This document shows, in pieces, positions 5,256 through 25,330 of a stretch of DNA of 64,000 nucleotides. Within the stretch, counting starts at the first letter, position 1. Each line of letters begins with the position of its first letter. Source of the stretch: Oscillospiraceae bacterium (GTDB taxonomy: Bacteria > Bacillota > Clostridia > Oscillospirales > Oscillospiraceae); contig AP025582.1 in NCBI GenBank assembly GCA_022846075.1, positions 3,038,001-3,102,000 on the forward strand. The letters run 5' to 3'. The translations under genes and the position numbers were made by a program. Below the pieces are notes generated by a model, which was not told the DNA's origin, searched no databases, and was given only the letters and a program-made list of their open reading frames with translations.

Positions 5256-6134
5256 TTGAACCAAATATCCCCCTTAGAAAGGGCCATCGAATATATCGAG
5301 CATCACCTGAATGAAAACATCGGCTTGAGCGACGTGTCAAGGGAGACCGGCTATTCCTACTACCACATGACGCGGCTGTTTTCCTCCGTTTTGGGGGAAT
5401 CCGTCGGCCGCTACATCAACCGGCGCAGGCTGTATAACGCCTCGGAAAAGCTCATCCACTCCAACCAGCGGGTCATCGACATCGCCCTCGACTGCGGGTT
5501 TCAATCGCCGGAGGCGTTCAGCCGGGCGTTCAAGGCCGCCTTTGGCAGCAGCCCGGTGGAATACCGAAGGGCGGGGCTCGACCTGGTGGTGAACGCCAAG
5601 CGGGAGCTGCTGCCCGAGGACGTGACCCATATCGCGAACAACATCTCCCGCTCGCCCGAGCTTGTCACGAGGAAGGAGACGAGGATAGCCGGCCTACGGG
5701 GCACGACCTCCCTCTCCGATAACCGGCTCCCCGCGCTGTGGGAGGAATTCCTGCGTCTCCATAAAGGCCTGAAAGACCTGTTTCCGCCCTCCGGCGCGGG
5801 TTACGGTATCTGTGAAACACAGCAGACCACTTATACCCAAGACGGCGACATACTCTTCGCCGTCATGGTGGGCAGCCCCGTGGACGATTTCGACCGTCTC
5901 CCGCCCGCCTTGTCCTTGGAGCAAAAAGTCCTGCGGGCGGGAAGGTACGCGGCTTTCACCCACCGGGGAACCTTCGCGAACCTGGTCAAAACCTATCAAT
6001 ACATTTTCGGCACGTGGCTGCCGACCGCGGGCGTGGAGCTGGACGACCGCGAGGACTTCGAAGTCTATGAGCGGGAGGTGCTCTCCTTCGACGACCCAAA
6101 CAACGAGGTCAAGATTTTTATCCCAATCAAATAA
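5256..6134 (+). CDS. AraC-type regulator with GyrI-like effector domain
   Basis: A 292-residue protein. An N-terminal AraC double helix-turn-helix (from ERAIEYIEHHLNENIGLSDVS to the GFQSPEAFSRAFKAAFGSSP signature) is followed by a C-terminal GyrI/SOUL-like effector-binding domain. The layout is that of Rob and of several Firmicute multidrug regulators, in which the GyrI domain binds lipophilic drugs. I choose the TTG start at 5256 because GGAGG sits seven bases before it; an ATG at 5214 in the same frame has no ribosome site. It is divergent from the MATE-UvrA operon, its likely target, and ends in a strong terminator. Confidence 0.88.
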   Translation: MNQISPLERAIEYIEHHLNENIGLSDVSRETGYSYYHMTRLFSSVLGESVGRYINRRRLYNASEKLIHSNQRVIDIALDCGFQSPEAFSRAFKAAFGSSPVEYRRAGLDLVVNAKRELLPEDVTHIANNISRSPELVTRKETRIAGLRGTTSLSDNRLPALWEEFLRLHKGLKDLFPPSGAGYGICETQQTTYTQDGDILFAVMVGSPVDDFDRLPPALSLEQKVLRAGRYAAFTHRGTFANLVKTYQYIFGTWLPTAGVELDDREDFEVYEREVLSFDDPNNEVKIFIPIK

Positions 6135-6170
6135 GGACGGGACCCCGCCGGCGGGGTCCCGTCCTTTTTT
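6133..6170 (+). terminator. Terminator between AraC regulator and ABC exporter genes
   Basis: A near-perfect inverted repeat of about 16 bp (AGGACGGGACCCCGCC and its complement) begins at the AraC stop codon and is followed by a T run on the plus strand. It separates two convergent transcripts and may also serve the minus-strand ABC gene. Confidence 0.88.
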
Positions 6171-18739: not shown

Positions 18740-19975
18740 TTAGGCGTTGAAGACGTACTTGTCCATACGCTCAAAGGCTTCTTTCACGCGGGAGAGGGGC
18801 AGGGCCAGGTTCAGGCGGATGTGGCAGGGGCCGTGGAACATCCGGCCGTCCTGCCAGATGACGCCGCACGCCAGGCCGGCCTTCTCCACGTCGTCGATGG
18901 TCTTGCCGTACTTCTCGCACCACTTGGAGCAGTCCAGGAACAGCATGTAAGTACCCTGGGGCTTGGAGACCTCCACGCCGTCAAAGTGCTTGGCGATGTA
19001 GTCGCAGGCGTAGTCGATGTTGCCGGTGATGGTCTCGCACAGCTCGTCGCACCACTCGTAGCCCTCGGGCTTGTAGGCGCCGATGAGGGCGTGGAGGGAG
19101 AACACGTTCATGTCGTTGTAATGGGGCAGAGAGGACTCCTTGTCCATCCGCTCCCGCATCCACTGGTTGTAGACGATGTGGTAGGAACCCACCAGCCCGG
19201 CCAGGTTGAAGGTCTTGGAGGGGGCGTAGATGGCGGCGGTGCGCATCCGGGCGTCCTCGCTGACGGACTGGGTGGGCACGTGCTTATGGCCGGAGAGGAT
19301 GATATCGGACCAGATCTCGTCGGAGACCACGAACACGTCGTGCTTCTTGAAGAGCTCCATGGCCTTCTCCACTTCCCACTTCTCCCAGACGCGGCCGCAG
19401 GGGTTGTGGGGGGAGCAGAACACGGTGGCGTGGATCTTGTTCTCCACAATCTTCTTCTCCATGTCCTCGAAGTCCATGCGCCAGACGCCCTCGGCGTCCT
19501 TCACCAGGGGGGAGAGGACCATGTTGTAGCCGTTGTTGGTCAGCGCGCCGGTGAAGCCGATGTAGGTCGGAGTGTGCAGCAGCACGTTGTCACCCTTGGA
19601 GCAGAACACGTTCAGGGCGCTGATGACGCCGCCCAGGACGCCGTTTTCATAGCCGATGTGCTCCCGCTTCAGGCCCTTGACGCCGTTGCGGGTCTCGTGC
19701 CACTTGATGATGGAGTCAAAATACTCGTCGGTGGGCTGGAAGTAGCCGAAGGCGGGGTGCTGGGCCCGCTCAATGATGGCCTGGGGGATGGTGGGGCAGG
19801 TGGGGAAGTTCATGTCCGCCACCCACATGGGGATGTTGTCCAGGCCGTCCCGGATGGCCACCTCGGACAGGGGCTTCATGACGAAGTTGCCCGCGGCGTC
19901 GGGCTGGGGGACCACGTCGACGGCGATGGCATCCTTGCCGTGGCGGTCCATAATAGAGGTGAAATCGTACTTCAT
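18740..19975 (-). CDS. PatB/MalY-type PLP C-S lyase (aminotransferase fold), copy 1
   Basis: A 411-residue fold-type I PLP enzyme. Motifs: IPMWVADMNFPTCPTIPQAI near the start, SPHNPCGRVW, SDEIWSDI and YAPSKTFNLAGL, where the Lys of SKTFNLAG is expected to hold PLP. MalY/PatB enzymes cleave the C-S bond of cystathionine, cysteine or S-conjugates to thiol, pyruvate and ammonia; some act as aminotransferases. It lies 114 bases after an APC permease gene in the same direction and is read as the second gene of that operon. It is about three-quarters identical by eye to the copy at 21880-23091. The substrate cannot be decided. Confidence 0.88.
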   Translation of the reverse strand: MKYDFTSIMDRHGKDAIAVDVVPQPDAAGNFVMKPLSEVAIRDGLDNIPMWVADMNFPTCPTIPQAIIERAQHPAFGYFQPTDEYFDSIIKWHETRNGVKGLKREHIGYENGVLGGVISALNVFCSKGDNVLLHTPTYIGFTGALTNNGYNMVLSPLVKDAEGVWRMDFEDMEKKIVENKIHATVFCSPHNPCGRVWEKWEVEKAMELFKKHDVFVVSDEIWSDIILSGHKHVPTQSVSEDARMRTAAIYAPSKTFNLAGLVGSYHIVYNQWMRERMDKESSLPHYNDMNVFSLHALIGAYKPEGYEWCDELCETITGNIDYACDYIAKHFDGVEVSKPQGTYMLFLDCSKWCEKYGKTIDDVEKAGLACGVIWQDGRMFHGPCHIRLNLALPLSRVKEAFERMDKYVFNA

Positions 19976-20089: not shown

Positions 20090-21511
20090 TTAGACCACCT
20101 TGGCGGCCGCGGCGGCCTCCCGGGCCTCCTCAGCCTCGTCGGCCTCGGTGGCGGCCAGGGCGTCGGCCGCGATCTTCGCCCGCTTGGCCAGCAGGTCTTC
20201 CTTCTTGACCATGCCGGTGCGCAGCTGGATCTGGGCGATGCCCACCATGACCACCAGCAGCACCACACAGAGGATCATGGAAGTGGTGCTCAGGTCCTTA
20301 AAGAGGTAGAAGGCCACGGCGCAGGCGCAGACAGTGCCGATGACGCACAGGCAGTTGAAGAGCGGGGTGGGCATGTGCAGAGTGGACTTCTTCCACTGCT
20401 CGGGGTACTCTTTGATCAGCTTGATCATGGAGATGTTCATGTAGGCATTCATCACCATGGAGATGATCATCACGAGGGAAATCAGCGCGTCCACGGACAG
20501 GCCGGTGAAGATGGGCACGATGGTGAACACGAAGAACAGGCCCATGACCACGTAGGGGTAACCGCTCTTGGTGGTCTTTTTGAAGACCTTGGGCAGCCAG
20601 CCGTCCTCAGCCACGGAGAGCAGGGGGTAGCGCAGCATGGTCATGCCGGAGGCCAGGGAGGACATGATGGCGCAGCAGGCGGCGCCCAGGATGAAGATGG
20701 CGAAGAGGGTGGGGCTGAAGATAGCCTGGGCCACCAGGGACAGGTTTTGGCCTGCGACCTGCTCCACGGGGAGCACACCGGCGGCCACGATGGACATCAG
20801 GGCGTACACCGCGGCCACGGTCACGCAGATCAGCAGGATGCCCAGGGGGATGGTCTTGCGGGGCTTCTTGGTGACGGGCATAACGGAGACAGGGGCCATG
20901 GTGGTGCCCTGGCAGGCGAAGGACATCATGGCGATGGCGCCGATGAGGCCGCCGAAGCCGCCGGAGAAGAACTGGCCGTCCGCGTTGGAGAAGTAGCCGG
21001 GCTGCACCTTGGGCAGGCCCACAACCACGAAAATCACGACGGAGACCAGCAGCGTGGCCGTAATAATGGTGGTGATGGTGGCCAGGGCCTTGGTGCCCCG
21101 GACGGACAGGGCGAAGAACAGGACGATCAGCGCGATCGCGATCAGATTTTGATAGGGTGCCAAATCGGTAAAGACCGAGGTGAAATAGCTGGCGAAGGCC
21201 AAACCATACGAGGCCATGCCAAACCCGTTCACGACGGTGGCCAGTGCCGAGAAGCCCGTCATGGTGGGGCCCATCAGCATAACTTTCATATCATAGTCGC
21301 CGCCGGGGAGGACGAACATGGAACTCATGATGGGGTGGAACAGGTAAGCCAGCAGCATGTACAGACAGCCTACGGAGACAGCCAGGACGATGGATCGGCC
21401 GGTGTAGGCGATGCCGAAGCCCATCATAACGAAGATGCCGGAACCGATGGCGCCGCCCACGCCCAGACTGAAGATGTTGAACAAGCCTAATTTCTTTTTC
21501 TCACCTTGCAT
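20090..21511 (-). CDS. APC superfamily amino acid permease, copy 1
   Basis: A 473-residue membrane protein with about 12 helices. The first helix carries the substrate-binding GGAIGSGIFV motif of the amino acid-polyamine-organocation family. The last 40 residues are an Ala/Glu-rich cytoplasmic tail (AATEADEAEEAREAAAAA). It should take up or exchange an amino acid, and the PatB-type lyase gene that follows suggests a sulfur amino acid or amino-acid conjugate. Start: ATG 11 bases after GAGGAGG. Transcription begins about 176 bases upstream at a TTGACG-16-TATGAT promoter and passes through a three-hairpin leader that is shared with the operon at 21880-24646. Confidence 0.9.
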   Translation of the reverse strand: MQGEKKKLGLFNIFSLGVGGAIGSGIFVMMGFGIAYTGRSIVLAVSVGCLYMLLAYLFHPIMSSMFVLPGGDYDMKVMLMGPTMTGFSALATVVNGFGMASYGLAFASYFTSVFTDLAPYQNLIAIALIVLFFALSVRGTKALATITTIITATLLVSVVIFVVVGLPKVQPGYFSNADGQFFSGGFGGLIGAIAMMSFACQGTTMAPVSVMPVTKKPRKTIPLGILLICVTVAAVYALMSIVAAGVLPVEQVAGQNLSLVAQAIFSPTLFAIFILGAACCAIMSSLASGMTMLRYPLLSVAEDGWLPKVFKKTTKSGYPYVVMGLFFVFTIVPIFTGLSVDALISLVMIISMVMNAYMNISMIKLIKEYPEQWKKSTLHMPTPLFNCLCVIGTVCACAVAFYLFKDLSTTSMILCVVLLVVMVGIAQIQLRTGMVKKEDLLAKRAKIAADALAATEADEAEEAREAAAAAKVV

Positions 21512-21687
21512 TTTGCTTCCTCCTCAAAGTTCTCCCAGTTTTTACTCCTATCATAAAAGCGGGCCCGCTTCTACTTCTCAACGGTGTGAAAGGAGTATCA
21601 TGTTCCGTATACGGAACATGACGGAAAGGCTAGCCTTTCCGTTCTCCATTTAATTATCTCAATGTTTAAGATGCTTAATCATGAAGT
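21512..21687 (-). ncRNA. Structured 5' leader RNA of the APC-PatB operon, copy 1
   Basis: This is the untranslated leader of the permease mRNA, about 176 bases. Reading with the transcript it holds hairpin H1 (21621-21642, a 22-base palindrome with arms ACGGAAAGG/CCTTTCCGT), directly abutting H2 (21599-21620, arms CATGTTCCG/CGGAACATG), a linker containing CTCCTTTC, then H3 (21553-21574, arms around a GGCC loop), then the ribosome site GAGGAGG. The leader at 24470-24646 has the same order, spacing and length with different but still paired arms. The linker could pair with H1 (GAAAGG) or with ribosome-site bases, so two exclusive folds are possible. I know no riboswitch with this form. The AT-rich stretch 21722-21817 beyond the promoter shows nothing else. 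Confidence 0.55.
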
Positions 21688-21693
21688 GTATTT

Positions 21694-21721
21694 ATCATAC
21701 CACTTTTGTTCATGGCGTCAA
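21694..21721 (-). promoter_or_regulatory. Sigma-A promoter of APC-PatB operon, copy 1
   Basis: Minus strand: TTGACG, 16 bases, TATGAT. The segment from the -35 to about 25 bases past the -10 is nearly identical to the promoter at 24653-24680 (shared GTGGTATGATAAA and ACACTTCAT), while the distal spacer differs. Confidence 0.85.
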
Positions 21722-21817
21722 GACATTTTTTGTACTACTTTTACAATTCTTGCACTTCCAACAAATTAAGTTTTACCTTTTTGTAAAAAACGCACAGCAA
21801 TTTCGAGTTAAAAATAC

Positions 21818-21854
21818 AAAAAGCCAGAACAGTATATACTGTTCTGGCTTTTTT
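21818..21854 (-). terminator. Terminator after PatB copy 2
   Basis: A perfect palindrome built on AAAAAGCCAGAACAGTATA and its complement; on the minus strand it ends in TTTTT. It lies 25 bases after the stop of the lyase gene and blocks read-through into the next operon's promoter. Confidence 0.9.
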
Positions 21855-21879
21855 GAAAATATGGGGCAGCTTGCGGCGC

Positions 21880-23091
21880 TTATGCGTTGAAAACGTATTT
21901 GTCCAGCCGGTCAAAAGCCTCTTTTACCCGTGTCAAAGGCAGGGCCAAGTTCATACGGATGTGGCAGGGCCCATGGAACTGGCGGCCGTCCTGGACGGCC
22001 ACACCCACGTCCCAGCAGGCTTTTTCCAGCTCGTCGATGGTCTTGCCGTGGGTCTCACACCACTTGGTACAGTCCACAAAGAGCATGTAGGTGCCCTCTG
22101 GCTTGCTGGCCTCCACGCCCTCGAAATGCTTGGTGATGTAGTCACAGGCGTAGTCCACGTTGCCGGCGATGGTCTCTCTCAGCTCGTCGCACCACTCGTA
22201 GCCTTCGGGCTGGTAGGCCCCGAGGAGGGCGTGCATGGAGAGGACGTTCATATCGTTGTAGTGGCACAGGGAGGACTCCTTCGCCACCCGGTCCTGCAGC
22301 CGGGGACAATAGATAATGTGGTAGGAACCGATCAGCCCTGCCAGGTTGAAGGTCTTGGAGGGGGCGTAGACCGCGATGGTACGGTATTTAGCATCCTCGT
22401 TTACCGATTGGGTGGGGATGTGCTGGACGCCGGGGCGGAGGATGTCGGACCAGATCTCGTCGGAGACGATGAACACGTTGTGCTTGGCGCACAGCTCGGT
22501 AAATTTCTCCAGCTCCCAGTGCTCCCAGACCCGGCCGCAGGGGTTGTGGGGGGAGCAGAACACGGTGGCGTGGATGCGGTTCTCCACGATTTTCCGCTCC
22601 ATGTCCTCAAAGTCCATGCGGTAGATACCCTTCTCGTCCCTCACCAGGGGCGAGAGCACCATATTGTAACCGTTGTTGGACAGGCTGTTGGTGAAGCCCA
22701 CGTAGGTGGGGCTGTGCAGGAGCACGTTGTCCCCCTTGGAGCAGAGCACATTCAGGGCGCTGATGACGCCGCCCAGAACGCCGTTTTCGTAGCCGATACA
22801 CTCTTTGGTGAGGCCGGTGACCCCGTTGCGCTTCTCATGCCAGCGGATGATGGCGTCGTAGTACTCCTCCGGGGGGTCGAAATACCCGTAGGCGGGATGC
22901 TTGGCCCGCTCGATGATGGCCTGGGGCACGGTGGGCACGGTGGGGAAGTTCATGTCGGCCACCCACATGGGGATGGCGTCGAACCCCTCCTTGGGGGCGT
23001 CGGGAGCGAAACCGGGACAGGTCCCGATGCCGTCTACCGCCCATGCGTCCCTGCCGCGGCGGTCCAGGATGGATGTAAAGTCATATTTCAT
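21880..23091 (-). CDS. PatB/MalY-type PLP C-S lyase (aminotransferase fold), copy 2
   Basis: A 403-residue fold-type I PLP enzyme, paralogous to 18740-19975. It has the same motifs (IPMWVADMNFPTVPTVPQAI, SPHNPCGRVW, SDEIWSDI, YAPSKTFNLAGL with the PLP Lys). The main difference is an 8-residue deletion in the N-terminal segment just before FDAIPMW. It lies 43 bases after the second APC permease gene and is the last gene of that operon, with a clear terminator. Function as for copy 1: C-S bond cleavage of cysteine-type substrates or transamination. The high identity of the enzymes, against strongly diverged permeases, suggests that the two operons feed similar chemistry from different imported substrates. 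Confidence 0.88.
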   Translation of the reverse strand: MKYDFTSILDRRGRDAWAVDGIGTCPGFAPDAPKEGFDAIPMWVADMNFPTVPTVPQAIIERAKHPAYGYFDPPEEYYDAIIRWHEKRNGVTGLTKECIGYENGVLGGVISALNVLCSKGDNVLLHSPTYVGFTNSLSNNGYNMVLSPLVRDEKGIYRMDFEDMERKIVENRIHATVFCSPHNPCGRVWEHWELEKFTELCAKHNVFIVSDEIWSDILRPGVQHIPTQSVNEDAKYRTIAVYAPSKTFNLAGLIGSYHIIYCPRLQDRVAKESSLCHYNDMNVLSMHALLGAYQPEGYEWCDELRETIAGNVDYACDYITKHFEGVEASKPEGTYMLFVDCTKWCETHGKTIDELEKACWDVGVAVQDGRQFHGPCHIRMNLALPLTRVKEAFDRLDKYVFNA

Positions 23092-23134
23092 AGTGTGTCT
23101 CTCCCTTTTTCTTGGCTGAACATTTCATTTTTTC

Positions 23135-24469
23135 TTACTCTACGATTTCGTAGCTGATATCCATATTTACTTTCTTGGCCCGGATGCAGCCGAAAGCCAT
23201 AGCGGCCACAATCATTGCCACGTTGCCAATCAGAAGGGGCGTGCTGAGAGACATGGCGTTGTAAACGGCGATGAGGGCGTTGGCAATCGTAGCGACTACC
23301 GACAAGACAATCAGCACGGGCATGCTCACCTTGAACTTGGACTTGGCCCACGCCTCGGGCATCACTTTGGGGAGCTTATAAAGCATGATATACAGCGGCA
23401 TGCCGGACACGGCGGAGCTGACCAGGCAGATATTGGCCAGATTGTCTACGGACAGCCCGCTGATGATGCACACGGCGGTGATGATGTAAACCGCCGCTAG
23501 GAGAGCCACCGGGGTCTTATACTTGGGGTGCAGGTAGCCCAGCTTTCTGGGGAACCAGCCGTCGTCGCAGGCCTGGAGGAGCGGCTTGGGGGAGGTGGCG
23601 AACTGGGCGTTCAGAGTGGAGATGAGCGCGAACCCGGCGCCGAACACCATGAAGAAGACGTACAGGGGCTTGGAGAGGATGATTTGGGCCACCATGGACA
23701 GGTTCTGGTTGGCCACCTGCTCCACCGGCAGCACGCCGGAGGCCACAGCGCCGATGACCGCGTACAGGATGGTAACTACCAGGGTGCCAACCAGCATGGC
23801 CGCCGGGATGTCCCGGGTGGGCTTCTTCGCCTCGCCGGACAGGCTGGTGATGATTGTCGCGCCGCTCACGGCGAAGGTAAGGAGCATCGCCGCGCTCATG
23901 ATGCCCTGCGGGCCGTGGGTAATAAAGCCGTTGGTGAAGAAGTCGGGCTGGATGTGGGGCACACCCATAACGGCAAACAGCGCCATGGCCACGCACAGGA
24001 GCACGACGATAGCGTTTTGGAACTTCGCCATCACGTCAATGCCCCGAATGTTGACGAGGAAGAACAGCGTAAGTATGACCATGGCGATGACCTTCACATT
24101 TCCAAAGCCGAACAGGGAAACGAAGTAGTCGGCGAAGGCCAGGGGATACATAGCCAGAGATATGTTTTGCAGGATATATAGTATGATATACGCGCCTGTA
24201 AATCGCTTGTCGGTCAGCATGGCCAGTTCGGTATAGGACCCGCCCCGGACACGCACGGTGCCGCAGATGATGATGGAAGGAATGGATACGAGCACGACCA
24301 CGACCGCCGCAATCAGCAGCGAAATAAACATGGAGCGGCCCGTCATGCCGATGGCGCTCCCCAGCAGGGTCATGATGCCCGCGCCGATGACCTGTCCCAG
24401 GCAGGCGCTGAGCAGGTCTTTGAACCCAAGGACGCGCTTGAGCTGTCGAGTGGAACCTTCGTTTGCCAT
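23135..24469 (-). CDS. APC superfamily amino acid permease, copy 2
   Basis: A 444-residue, 12-helix permease. The first helix shows GQVIGAGIMTLLGSAIGMTGRS, an APC-type broken helix. It is only weakly similar to the permease at 20090-21511 (roughly one-third identity by eye), although the leader and the downstream lyase are closely shared. I choose the ATG at 24469, ten bases after AAGGAGG; the same frame is open for 34 codons upstream, but those would lie in the structured leader. Role: uptake or exchange of an amino acid or conjugate that the co-transcribed lyase then cleaves (inference). Confidence 0.88.
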   Translation of the reverse strand: MANEGSTRQLKRVLGFKDLLSACLGQVIGAGIMTLLGSAIGMTGRSMFISLLIAAVVVVLVSIPSIIICGTVRVRGGSYTELAMLTDKRFTGAYIILYILQNISLAMYPLAFADYFVSLFGFGNVKVIAMVILTLFFLVNIRGIDVMAKFQNAIVVLLCVAMALFAVMGVPHIQPDFFTNGFITHGPQGIMSAAMLLTFAVSGATIITSLSGEAKKPTRDIPAAMLVGTLVVTILYAVIGAVASGVLPVEQVANQNLSMVAQIILSKPLYVFFMVFGAGFALISTLNAQFATSPKPLLQACDDGWFPRKLGYLHPKYKTPVALLAAVYIITAVCIISGLSVDNLANICLVSSAVSGMPLYIMLYKLPKVMPEAWAKSKFKVSMPVLIVLSVVATIANALIAVYNAMSLSTPLLIGNVAMIVAAMAFGCIRAKKVNMDISYEIVE

Positions 24470-24646
24470 GATTAAAATGCCTCCTTTGTCTCTCCCGTAG
24501 TAAAATGTTTTATCTAATAAAAGCGGGCCCGCCTTTATTACCGCAATCAAAAGGAATTCATGTCTCTGCAAGAGACATGAAAAAGGAGCCGGCTCCTTTT
24601 TGGCGCCATTTATTTGTTTTATTGTGTAGCACCTTAACTATGAAGT
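24470..24646 (-). ncRNA. Structured 5' leader RNA of the APC-PatB operon, copy 2
   Basis: About 177 bases from the expected start of transcription to the permease ATG. In transcript order: H1 (24580-24601, 22-base palindrome with arms AAAAAGGAG/CTCCTTTTT), directly followed by H2 (24559-24579, arms CATGTCTC/GAGACATG, 5-base loop), a linker with TTCCTTTT, then H3 (24515-24540, 11-bp stem around GGCC), then AAAGGAGG. Compared with the leader at 21512-21687 the arms of H1 and H2 differ at several positions on both sides with pairing kept, which argues for RNA structure rather than a DNA operator. The linker can pair with H1 (AAAAGGA) or with the ribosome site (AAAGGA). Confidence 0.55.
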
Positions 24647-24652
24647 GTGTTT

Positions 24653-24680
24653 ATCATACCACGTTTGCCCAATCCGTCAA
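24653..24680 (-). promoter_or_regulatory. Sigma-A promoter of APC-PatB operon, copy 2
   Basis: Minus strand: TTGACG, 16 bases, TATGAT, matching the promoter at 21694-21721. Nothing else is seen in the AT-rich stretch 24681-24773 before the MarR terminator. Confidence 0.85.
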
Positions 24681-24773
24681 GATGTTTTTTGTTTCTTTTT
24701 TGCGGTTCTTACACTGTTCACAAAATTGGACCGTCATTCTTGTCAGGTATGCACAACCTTTTGTCAGATGCGC

Positions 24774-24823: not shown

Positions 24824-25330
24824 TCAATCGTCCTGACTGGCCTCCGCCTTTAAAAACCGCTCCCGGCTGCGGCGCACGTCACCCTGGTAGGCCTCGTTGA
24901 TCTTCCGCTGGACCATCACGTGATGCTCCAGCTCCTCGTTGGAAAATCCCGCCAGCAGTCCGAAGGTCTCGGCCTGGCAGTAGCGGTTGAACTCCAGGTG
25001 GTCCTCATAGACCTTTTGCCCGCTCTCCGTCAGCTTCAGGTTAAACTGCCGGTTGTTGTCCCGGTTCCGGGTCTGCTCCACCCAGCCCTTCTCCTTCAGC
25101 TTGCGCACGATCTGGGAGCAGGCGCTGGGGGTCTTTTTCAAAATATTGCCCAGGTCGGTAATGGTGATGCCGGGATAGACGGCAATGAGGTCGATGATAT
25201 GCCCCTCCGCCTGATAGAGGATGTTCTCTCCATAGTGGTGGGGCAGAGAATCATACTCGCACATCAGATCATACGCTTCGTCCTGGGCCGTCCATAGCTG
25301 CCGCAGCAGTTCCTCTCTTTTATCTCCCAT
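24824..25330 (-). CDS. MarR family transcriptional regulator
   Basis: A 168-residue winged-helix regulator. The central part (GITITDLGNILKKTPSACSQIVRKLKEKGWV) is the MarR helix-turn-helix, followed by the wing with RNRDNNRQFNLKLTESG. MarR dimers repress or activate nearby genes in response to phenols, thiols or oxidants. It has its own promoter (TTGCGA-17-TATAAT) and terminator, so it forms a single-gene unit. The closest possible target is the APC-PatB operon that begins 94 bases beyond its terminator; no shared operator was found, so this is a guess. Confidence 0.9.
   Translation of the reverse strand: MGDKREELLRQLWTAQDEAYDLMCEYDSLPHHYGENILYQAEGHIIDLIAVYPGITITDLGNILKKTPSACSQIVRKLKEKGWVEQTRNRDNNRQFNLKLTESGQKVYEDHLEFNRYCQAETFGLLAGFSNEELEHHVMVQRKINEAYQGDVRRSRERFLKAEASQDD

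Follow-up and report, generated by a model that had tools for sequence, protein, structure and literature searches.

A 64,000-nucleotide stretch of an Oscillospiraceae genome (GCA_022846075.1, contig AP025582.1, positions 3,038,001 to 3,102,000; hereafter the window, whose own numbering is used throughout) contains two neighboring operons for an APC-superfamily permease and a PatB-like enzyme, each preceded by a structured leader in which two perfect hairpins, H1 and H2, directly follow one another. The H1-H2 pair recurs across many genera of one bacterial family and occasionally in other families of the same class, and stands before a wide range of genes, most of which encode proteins with a strongly hydrophobic N-terminal part. 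We favor, with a confidence a little short of even, the reading that H1-H2 is a general element of 5′ leaders, which probably protects or insulates the mRNA and here stands beside a MarR-controlled promoter. The initial annotation of this locus had proposed a riboswitch or attenuator specific to the PatB operons, a proposal that our results do not support.

Structure and covariation of the tandem hairpins

Both leaders lie on the minus strand, at 21512-21687 (176 bases) and 24470-24646 (177 bases). As the initial annotation had described, they share the same promoter form, a near-equal length, and the order H1-H2-linker-H3-ribosome site; the arm sequences that it quoted and the GGCC loop that it gave for both copies of the third hairpin, H3, are also right. 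Its statement that H1 and H2 abut without a gap applies to the trimmed hairpins, since the maximal palindromes share one base in leader 1 and two bases in leader 2. A third copy of the leader occurs in another genus of the same family (genome G088), where the downstream permease and enzyme are 86% and 95% identical, respectively.

Alignment of the leaders of operons 1 and 2 and G088 gave standard pairs in 80 of 80 counted cells of 27 pairs, with one more cell gapped. Nine of the 27 pairs are changed on both sides, which none of 500 shuffles reached, and sliding the partners by 1-3 columns left at most 2 two-sided pairs. The variation in H1 and H2 is solely two-sided and Watson-Crick, whereas that in H3 is one-sided only, through G-U pairs, showing that H3 behaves differently; the compensated arm changes previously reported for H1 and H2 are real. 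The folding z-scores are -3.8, -3.2, and -3.3. The minimum-energy fold of leader 2 has H1 opened in favor of the ribosome site. A candidate leader peptide in leader 1 was discarded, since neither operon 2 nor G088 has the ATG at the corresponding position of the alignment.

The hairpins also stand out as palindromes. The window contains 9 even palindromes of at least 14 nt (6.2 in a Markov control) and 5 of at least 22 nt (0.03 in the control), and leader 1 supplies two of these five (H1 and H2) and leader 2 a third (H1). Between operon 1 and G088, a compensated change from GTATAC to GCATGC affects a loop position that is too near the center for pairing in an RNA hairpin.

The same character is seen in the wider group of tandem hairpins described below. 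In a covariance-model alignment of 36 of its 37 curated members (18 pairs), which leans towards structure both because it is model-fitted to the structure and because its members were chosen by models trained on such stems, 608 of 621 pair cells are Watson-Crick, 4 are G-U, and 9 are unpaired (98.6% paired). All 18 pairs vary, and the changes are two-sided in 219 cells, compared with 54 in shuffles, and one-sided in only 2; with slid partners, pairing falls to 44-54%. G-U makes up 11.4% of the pairs in 344 terminator hairpins from the examined loci, although this comparison is not like with like, the terminators having been freely folded and the models trained on G-U-free stems.

Of the 37 curated members, 33 have an H1 that is a full even palindrome, with centers GTAC (13), CATG (8), GCGC (4), CTAG (3), and others, and 9 have an H2 that is a full palindrome. 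Among the 36 aligned H1 loops, 27 are self-complementary and 6 have no loop columns, compared with a self-complementary tetraloop in 7 of the 344 terminators. The gap between H1 and H2 is zero in 31 of 37 members, while the loops and the bases before H1 vary. Directly after H2, an A is found in 34 of 35 aligned members, and in the tail a T recurs in 31 of 35 members and a C in 22 of 27, as counted in an alignment fitted by a model that favors such bases. The best promoter match is good (score of 2.6 or less) in 17 of 34 scored members; in these 17, H1 starts 5-59 nt after the -10 element (median 20), and in the window leaders the distance is 51 nt.

Distribution of the tandem-hairpin group

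A covariance model built from the three leaders aligned above (R1) matched 25 of 400 genomes of the family at E (expectation value) up to 1, its own sources included, and a second model built from nine leaders (R2) matched 74 of 300; the candidates of each genome were only partly scored in these large searches, so that the counts are lower bounds, and the E-values of the models are rough. By an automatic rule, 40 of 75 examined matches hold two abutting Watson-Crick hairpins; these 40 are spread over 36 genomes. The remaining 35 have no abutting second hairpin by this rule, with at least one (G252) being tandem by eye, and many weak matches are single hairpins such as ordinary terminators. At least four of the 40 are doubtful: G198, G037, the G376 match, which is a dispersed repeat, and the G209 match, which lies next to a tRNA-like sequence. 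A separate scan of 1.36 Mb of partly overlapping loci found 12 distinct abutting pairs of perfect hairpins, not all of which belong to the group, vs. 1 in a Markov control.

Across the class, where scoring was likewise partial, at least 39 of 291 genomes gave a match with E no higher than 0.01; of 29 loci inspected in genomes other than the own one, only 9 satisfy the tandem rule, some three or four of which look like the group. Outside the family, G537 and G626 carry AAAGGGGTACCCCTTT with a second hairpin directly after it, indicating that the group is not confined to one family. In the own genome, inspection of 13 further matches turned up a single tandem case, a weak site that is read on both strands. 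BLASTN searches found no further copy of the leader in 15 other genomes of the source genus or, with the G088 leader as query, in 10 other genomes of the G088 genus.

The group is apparently undescribed. At the gathering threshold, Rfam returned three tRNAs only for the 64-kb window and 0 matches for six related loci; a permissive scan of 21500-24700 gave 12 matches, none above the gathering score. Searches of open-access literature showed no description of this leader group. The covariance-model and Rfam searches suggested by the initial annotation thus produced homologs in other genomes and no Rfam counterpart in the window or the six related loci, and the test that it set itself, statistical covariation together with further homologs, came out in favor of a covarying structure.

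Some matches are of a different kind. G376 has near-identical blocks with two abutting palindromes at two places (L146, L168), the model matching two more there, and G138 (L152) has a related block; these blocks represent a dispersed repeat, not a series of leaders. At L189 (G294:C106:31742-31827), both hairpins occur as a nested double copy before the gene of a secreted protein, which may reflect duplication of the element. At L262 (G209:C11:4321-4426), two abutting long hairpins lie beside the tRNA-like sequence, with repeated ends, possibly an integration site.

Genes downstream of H1-H2

A same-strand gene with a ribosome site follows 35 of the 40 tandem matches. Among matches with such a called gene, the downstream protein has a strongly hydrophobic N-terminal part in 29 of 35 tandem and 6 of 21 non-tandem cases (Fisher p 1.2e-4), a comparison that uses a cut-off of our own, includes non-independent leaders of the MarR-transporter-PatB operon, and leaves aside 5 tandem and 14 non-tandem matches with no such gene.

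Pfam analysis of 28 further downstream proteins gave SBP_bac_5 (six), SBP_bac_8 (two), and DUF3798 (two), with DctP, Peripla_BP_6, DctM, DcuC, SLH, and RbsD_FucU found once each; four others matched YDG, DUF4379, ATP-grasp, and sigma-70 region 4, and 8 had no match or one below the cut-off. Binding proteins, S-layer and other signal-peptide-like proteins, DctM/DcuC carriers, and a FucU-type protein are thus all encoded after H1-H2. No common pathway of the kind used to recognize a riboswitch was found in this mixture of transporters, secreted proteins, and others, and this speaks against sensing of a ligand peculiar to the PatB reaction.

The probably MarR-controlled promoter and H3

A homolog of the MarR gene, kept adjacent to the operon as in MarR-regulated operons, was found upstream of related operons at 7 of 15 loci searched, in 7 different genomes (identities: G088 96%, G008 82%, G011 75%, G316 71%, G001 66%, Oribacterium 50%, and G005 32%). 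A full dyad of the TTAAG/CTTAA type lies near the promoter of operon 1 and of G001, G011, G005, and Oribacterium. Weaker forms are TTTAATATTAAA in G008 and a half-site in operon 2 and G088, and the G316 leader has no match to the dyad. Like MarR-family operons, the locus has an adjacent regulator gene and, as a candidate operator, a TTAA-rich dyad at the promoter. A MarR-type repressor encoded by the adjoining gene most likely switches the promoter through this dyad, which lies at the presumed transcript start. This part of the leader is ordinary.

H3, as judged by sequence, is a conserved palindrome of the transporter leaders of this regulon. It is present without H1-H2 in the leaders of G005 and G008, and together with both in the leader of G011, before a DcuC-type carrier. 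In G001, G316, and Oribacterium, the related MarR-transporter-PatB operon has neither H1-H2 nor H3, though the TTAAG dyad is retained in G001 and Oribacterium. A pattern search of 16 genomes of the genus, allowing up to 3 mismatches, found H3-like sequences in 6, with those in leaders of this kind coming from G000 (two), G005, G008, and G011. The matches in G007 and G014 look like chance; that in G014 precedes a promoter-like sequence ahead of an ABC-transporter open reading frame and is not part of a leader of this kind.

Interpretation of H1-H2

We tentatively view each leader as three modules: a MarR-controlled promoter, H1-H2, and H3. H1-H2 would be a scattered leader element, better conserved in shape than in sequence and usually found ahead of genes for exported or membrane proteins; its stacked hairpins would most likely guard the 5′ region of the mRNA against decay or keep the ribosome site insulated, so that output rises independently of any ligand. 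H3 may be a further binding site, on DNA or RNA, of these transporter leaders. The related operons in G001, G316, and Oribacterium, which lack the hairpins yet have the upstream MarR gene, speak for such a division. Known 5′ stabilizers of mRNA, reportedly including the leader stem-loops of aprE, papA, and ompA, are typically single stem-loops or ribosome-bound leaders. By analogy with the leaders of Bacillus subtilis ermC and aprE and Escherichia coli ompA and papA, H1-H2 would be a 5′-leader structure that raises mRNA life without a ligand, although it differs from them in having two perfect gapless hairpins of the same shape across genera. In B. subtilis, the 5′ leaders of the long-lived ermC, atpE, and cryIIIA mRNAs stabilize the RNA behind them (PMC3997798).

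Several observations weigh against protection or insulation of the mRNA. Neither the scarcity of G-U pairs nor the fully palindromic H1 is needed by a stabilizer, and the near-invariant A after H2 suggests recognition of the element. Half of the scored members have no good promoter match nearby, and in the window leaders H1 begins about 45 nt from the presumed transcript start. An outer closing stem, which would bury the 5′ end in a three-way junction, looked good by eye and then fared weakly under permutation, with 272 of 20,000 permutations reaching the observed mean and 4 of 37 members ranking in the best 5%. Each genome carries few copies of the element, with no strong matches in the own genome beyond the two leaders, and the downstream proteins include those with ATP-grasp, sigma-70 region 4, and DUF4379 matches. 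As for the promoter, no MarR homolog was found in the remaining loci of the 15 searched, including L108, L116, L119, and L128, which carry permease and PatB-like genes, and the dyad is reduced to a half-site in two of the leaders. The strict Watson-Crick pairing, the self-complementary H1 loops, and the GTATAC-to-GCATGC change are not explained by simple mRNA protection.

Because of these last three features, we keep open a reading at the level of DNA, in which H1 and H2 function as DNA, either double-stranded or extruded (operators or cruciforms), and folding of the RNA is incidental. The contrast with terminators, both in G-U content and in loop self-complementarity, fits this reading, as does compensation where an RNA hairpin cannot pair. 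We nevertheless consider it rather unlikely, since H2 is seldom a full palindrome, the arm sequences differ more widely than those of operators do, most tandem matches are followed by a gene on the same strand with its ribosome site, the A after H2 is conserved though irrelevant to palindromes, and the G-U contrast is subject to the bias noted above. The conserved A and tail point to recognition of the RNA or of its sequence by a protein, polymerase, or ligand. A minority possibility that we take seriously is a new class of leader element, a strictly Watson-Crick double palindrome of conserved shape with a conserved tail, which would mark the mRNAs of exported and membrane proteins in this bacterial class and be read by RNA polymerase or a dedicated protein, or act through self-pairing of H1, and would not sense one particular metabolite. 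A further reading compares H1-H2 with the put RNAs of phage HK022, which are about 70 nt long with two stem-loops, putL lying just downstream of its promoter (PMC9378689). H1-H2 resembles them in its two gapless early-transcript stems, which are near the promoter in members with a good promoter match. It is unlikely, however, that H1-H2 is an antitermination RNA that similarly yields a pause- and terminator-resistant elongation complex: the put stems have bulges, a triplex, and bases at fixed places that contact RNA polymerase, whereas the stems here are perfect and variable in sequence.

We regard as improbable a metabolite riboswitch, attenuator, or protein-binding switch dedicated to these operons, despite the conservation of a leader structure ahead of genes for amino-acid permeases and C-S lyase-like enzymes and the conserved A, T, and C that follow H2. 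H1-H2 also occurs before unrelated genes and is absent from three relatives of the operon, which tells equally against the earlier suggestion of an RNA sensing the substrate or product of the PatB-type enzyme. The switch envisaged there, with the linker CCTTT pairing either with H1 or with the ribosome site, finds some support in pairing predictions: in G088 the ribosome site pairs mainly with the linker (0.8-0.9), and in operon 2 the linker is among several partners (about 0.5). It is not a predicted partner in operon 1 or G011, and no alternative pairing is common to the four leaders. A loose terminator pattern is passed by H1 and H2 of operon 2 and not by the hairpins of operon 1. H1-H2 shares with riboswitch candidates from comparative genomics a covarying 5′ leader with a few conserved unpaired bases, and differs from them in having no common downstream pathway. 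Perfect arms of arbitrary sequence with almost no one-sided changes could also arise from template switching in replication, which would keep the palindromes perfect with little function; the location before ribosome sites, the association with exported proteins, and the occurrence in many genera with a usual gap of zero and a conserved tail make this very improbable.

If H1-H2 determines how stable the mRNAs of transporters and surface proteins are or how they are transcribed, it would help explain expression in anaerobes for which few genetic tools exist, and it would be a ready expression part. The scarce G-U pairs, self-complementary H1 loops, and conserved tail make recognition as DNA, as RNA, or by protein directly testable.

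Organization of the locus

Features of the two operons are listed in Table 1. In minus-strand order, operon 2 is followed by an intrinsic terminator and then by operon 1, with the MarR gene upstream of operon 2. Identity between the PatB-like enzymes is 72.5%, whereas the permeases share only 33%. Both enzymes score below the 340-bit cut-off of TIGR04350, the model for PatB C-S lyase, so "PatB-like" is the safe name.

Table 1. Coordinates of leader elements and genes in the window
Feature	Position	Strand	Description or evidence
H1, leader 1	21621..21642	-	22-nt perfect palindrome, 9-bp stem, center CTAG
H2, leader 1	21598..21621	-	24-nt perfect palindrome, abuts H1
H3, leader 1	21553..21574	-	GCGGGCCCGC core, A/T flanks, loop GGCC
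H1, leader 2	24580..24601	-	22-nt perfect palindrome, center CCGG
H2, leader 2	24557..24581	-	11-bp hairpin, 3-nt loop, abuts H1
H3, leader 2	24515..24540	-	11-bp stem, GGCC loop, one G-U
Operon 1 promoter	21694..21721	-	Sigma-70 type, TTGACG-16-TATGAT; pattern scan, 10/12 matches, TG before -10
Operon 2 promoter	24653..24680	-	Hexamers and spacing as operon 1; pattern scan, alignment to operon 1
Candidate MarR operator, operon 1	21666..21678	-	TTAAGCATCTTAA dyad just downstream of -10; like dyads in G001, G011, G005, and Oribacterium leaders
TTAAG half-site, operon 2	24633..24637	-	Half-site only, at place equivalent to operon 1 dyad
Ribosome site, permease 1	21519..21524	-	AGGAGG; sequence
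Ribosome site, permease 2	24480..24485	-	AGGAGG; sequence
Permease 1	20090..21511	-	APC superfamily, AA_permease_2; Pfam
PatB-like enzyme 1 (operon 1)	18740..19975	-	Pyridoxal phosphate enzyme; Pfam; TIGR04350 287 bits
Permease 2	23135..24469	-	APC superfamily; Pfam
PatB-like enzyme 2 (operon 2)	21880..23091	-	Pyridoxal phosphate enzyme; Pfam; TIGR04350 288 bits
MarR-family regulator	24824..25330	-	Directly upstream of operon 2; Pfam
Intrinsic terminator	21818..21853	-	Between operon 2 and operon 1 promoter

In G088, only the operon 1 type adjoins the MarR gene, and operon 2 therefore looks either inserted between the MarR gene and operon 1 or lost in G088. A neighboring APC permease is found at 5 of 80 PatB-like loci, some of which end early at contig ends. 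Elsewhere in the window, positions 6133-6166 form a perfect palindrome of 34 nt whose core is GC-rich and which may be a terminator.

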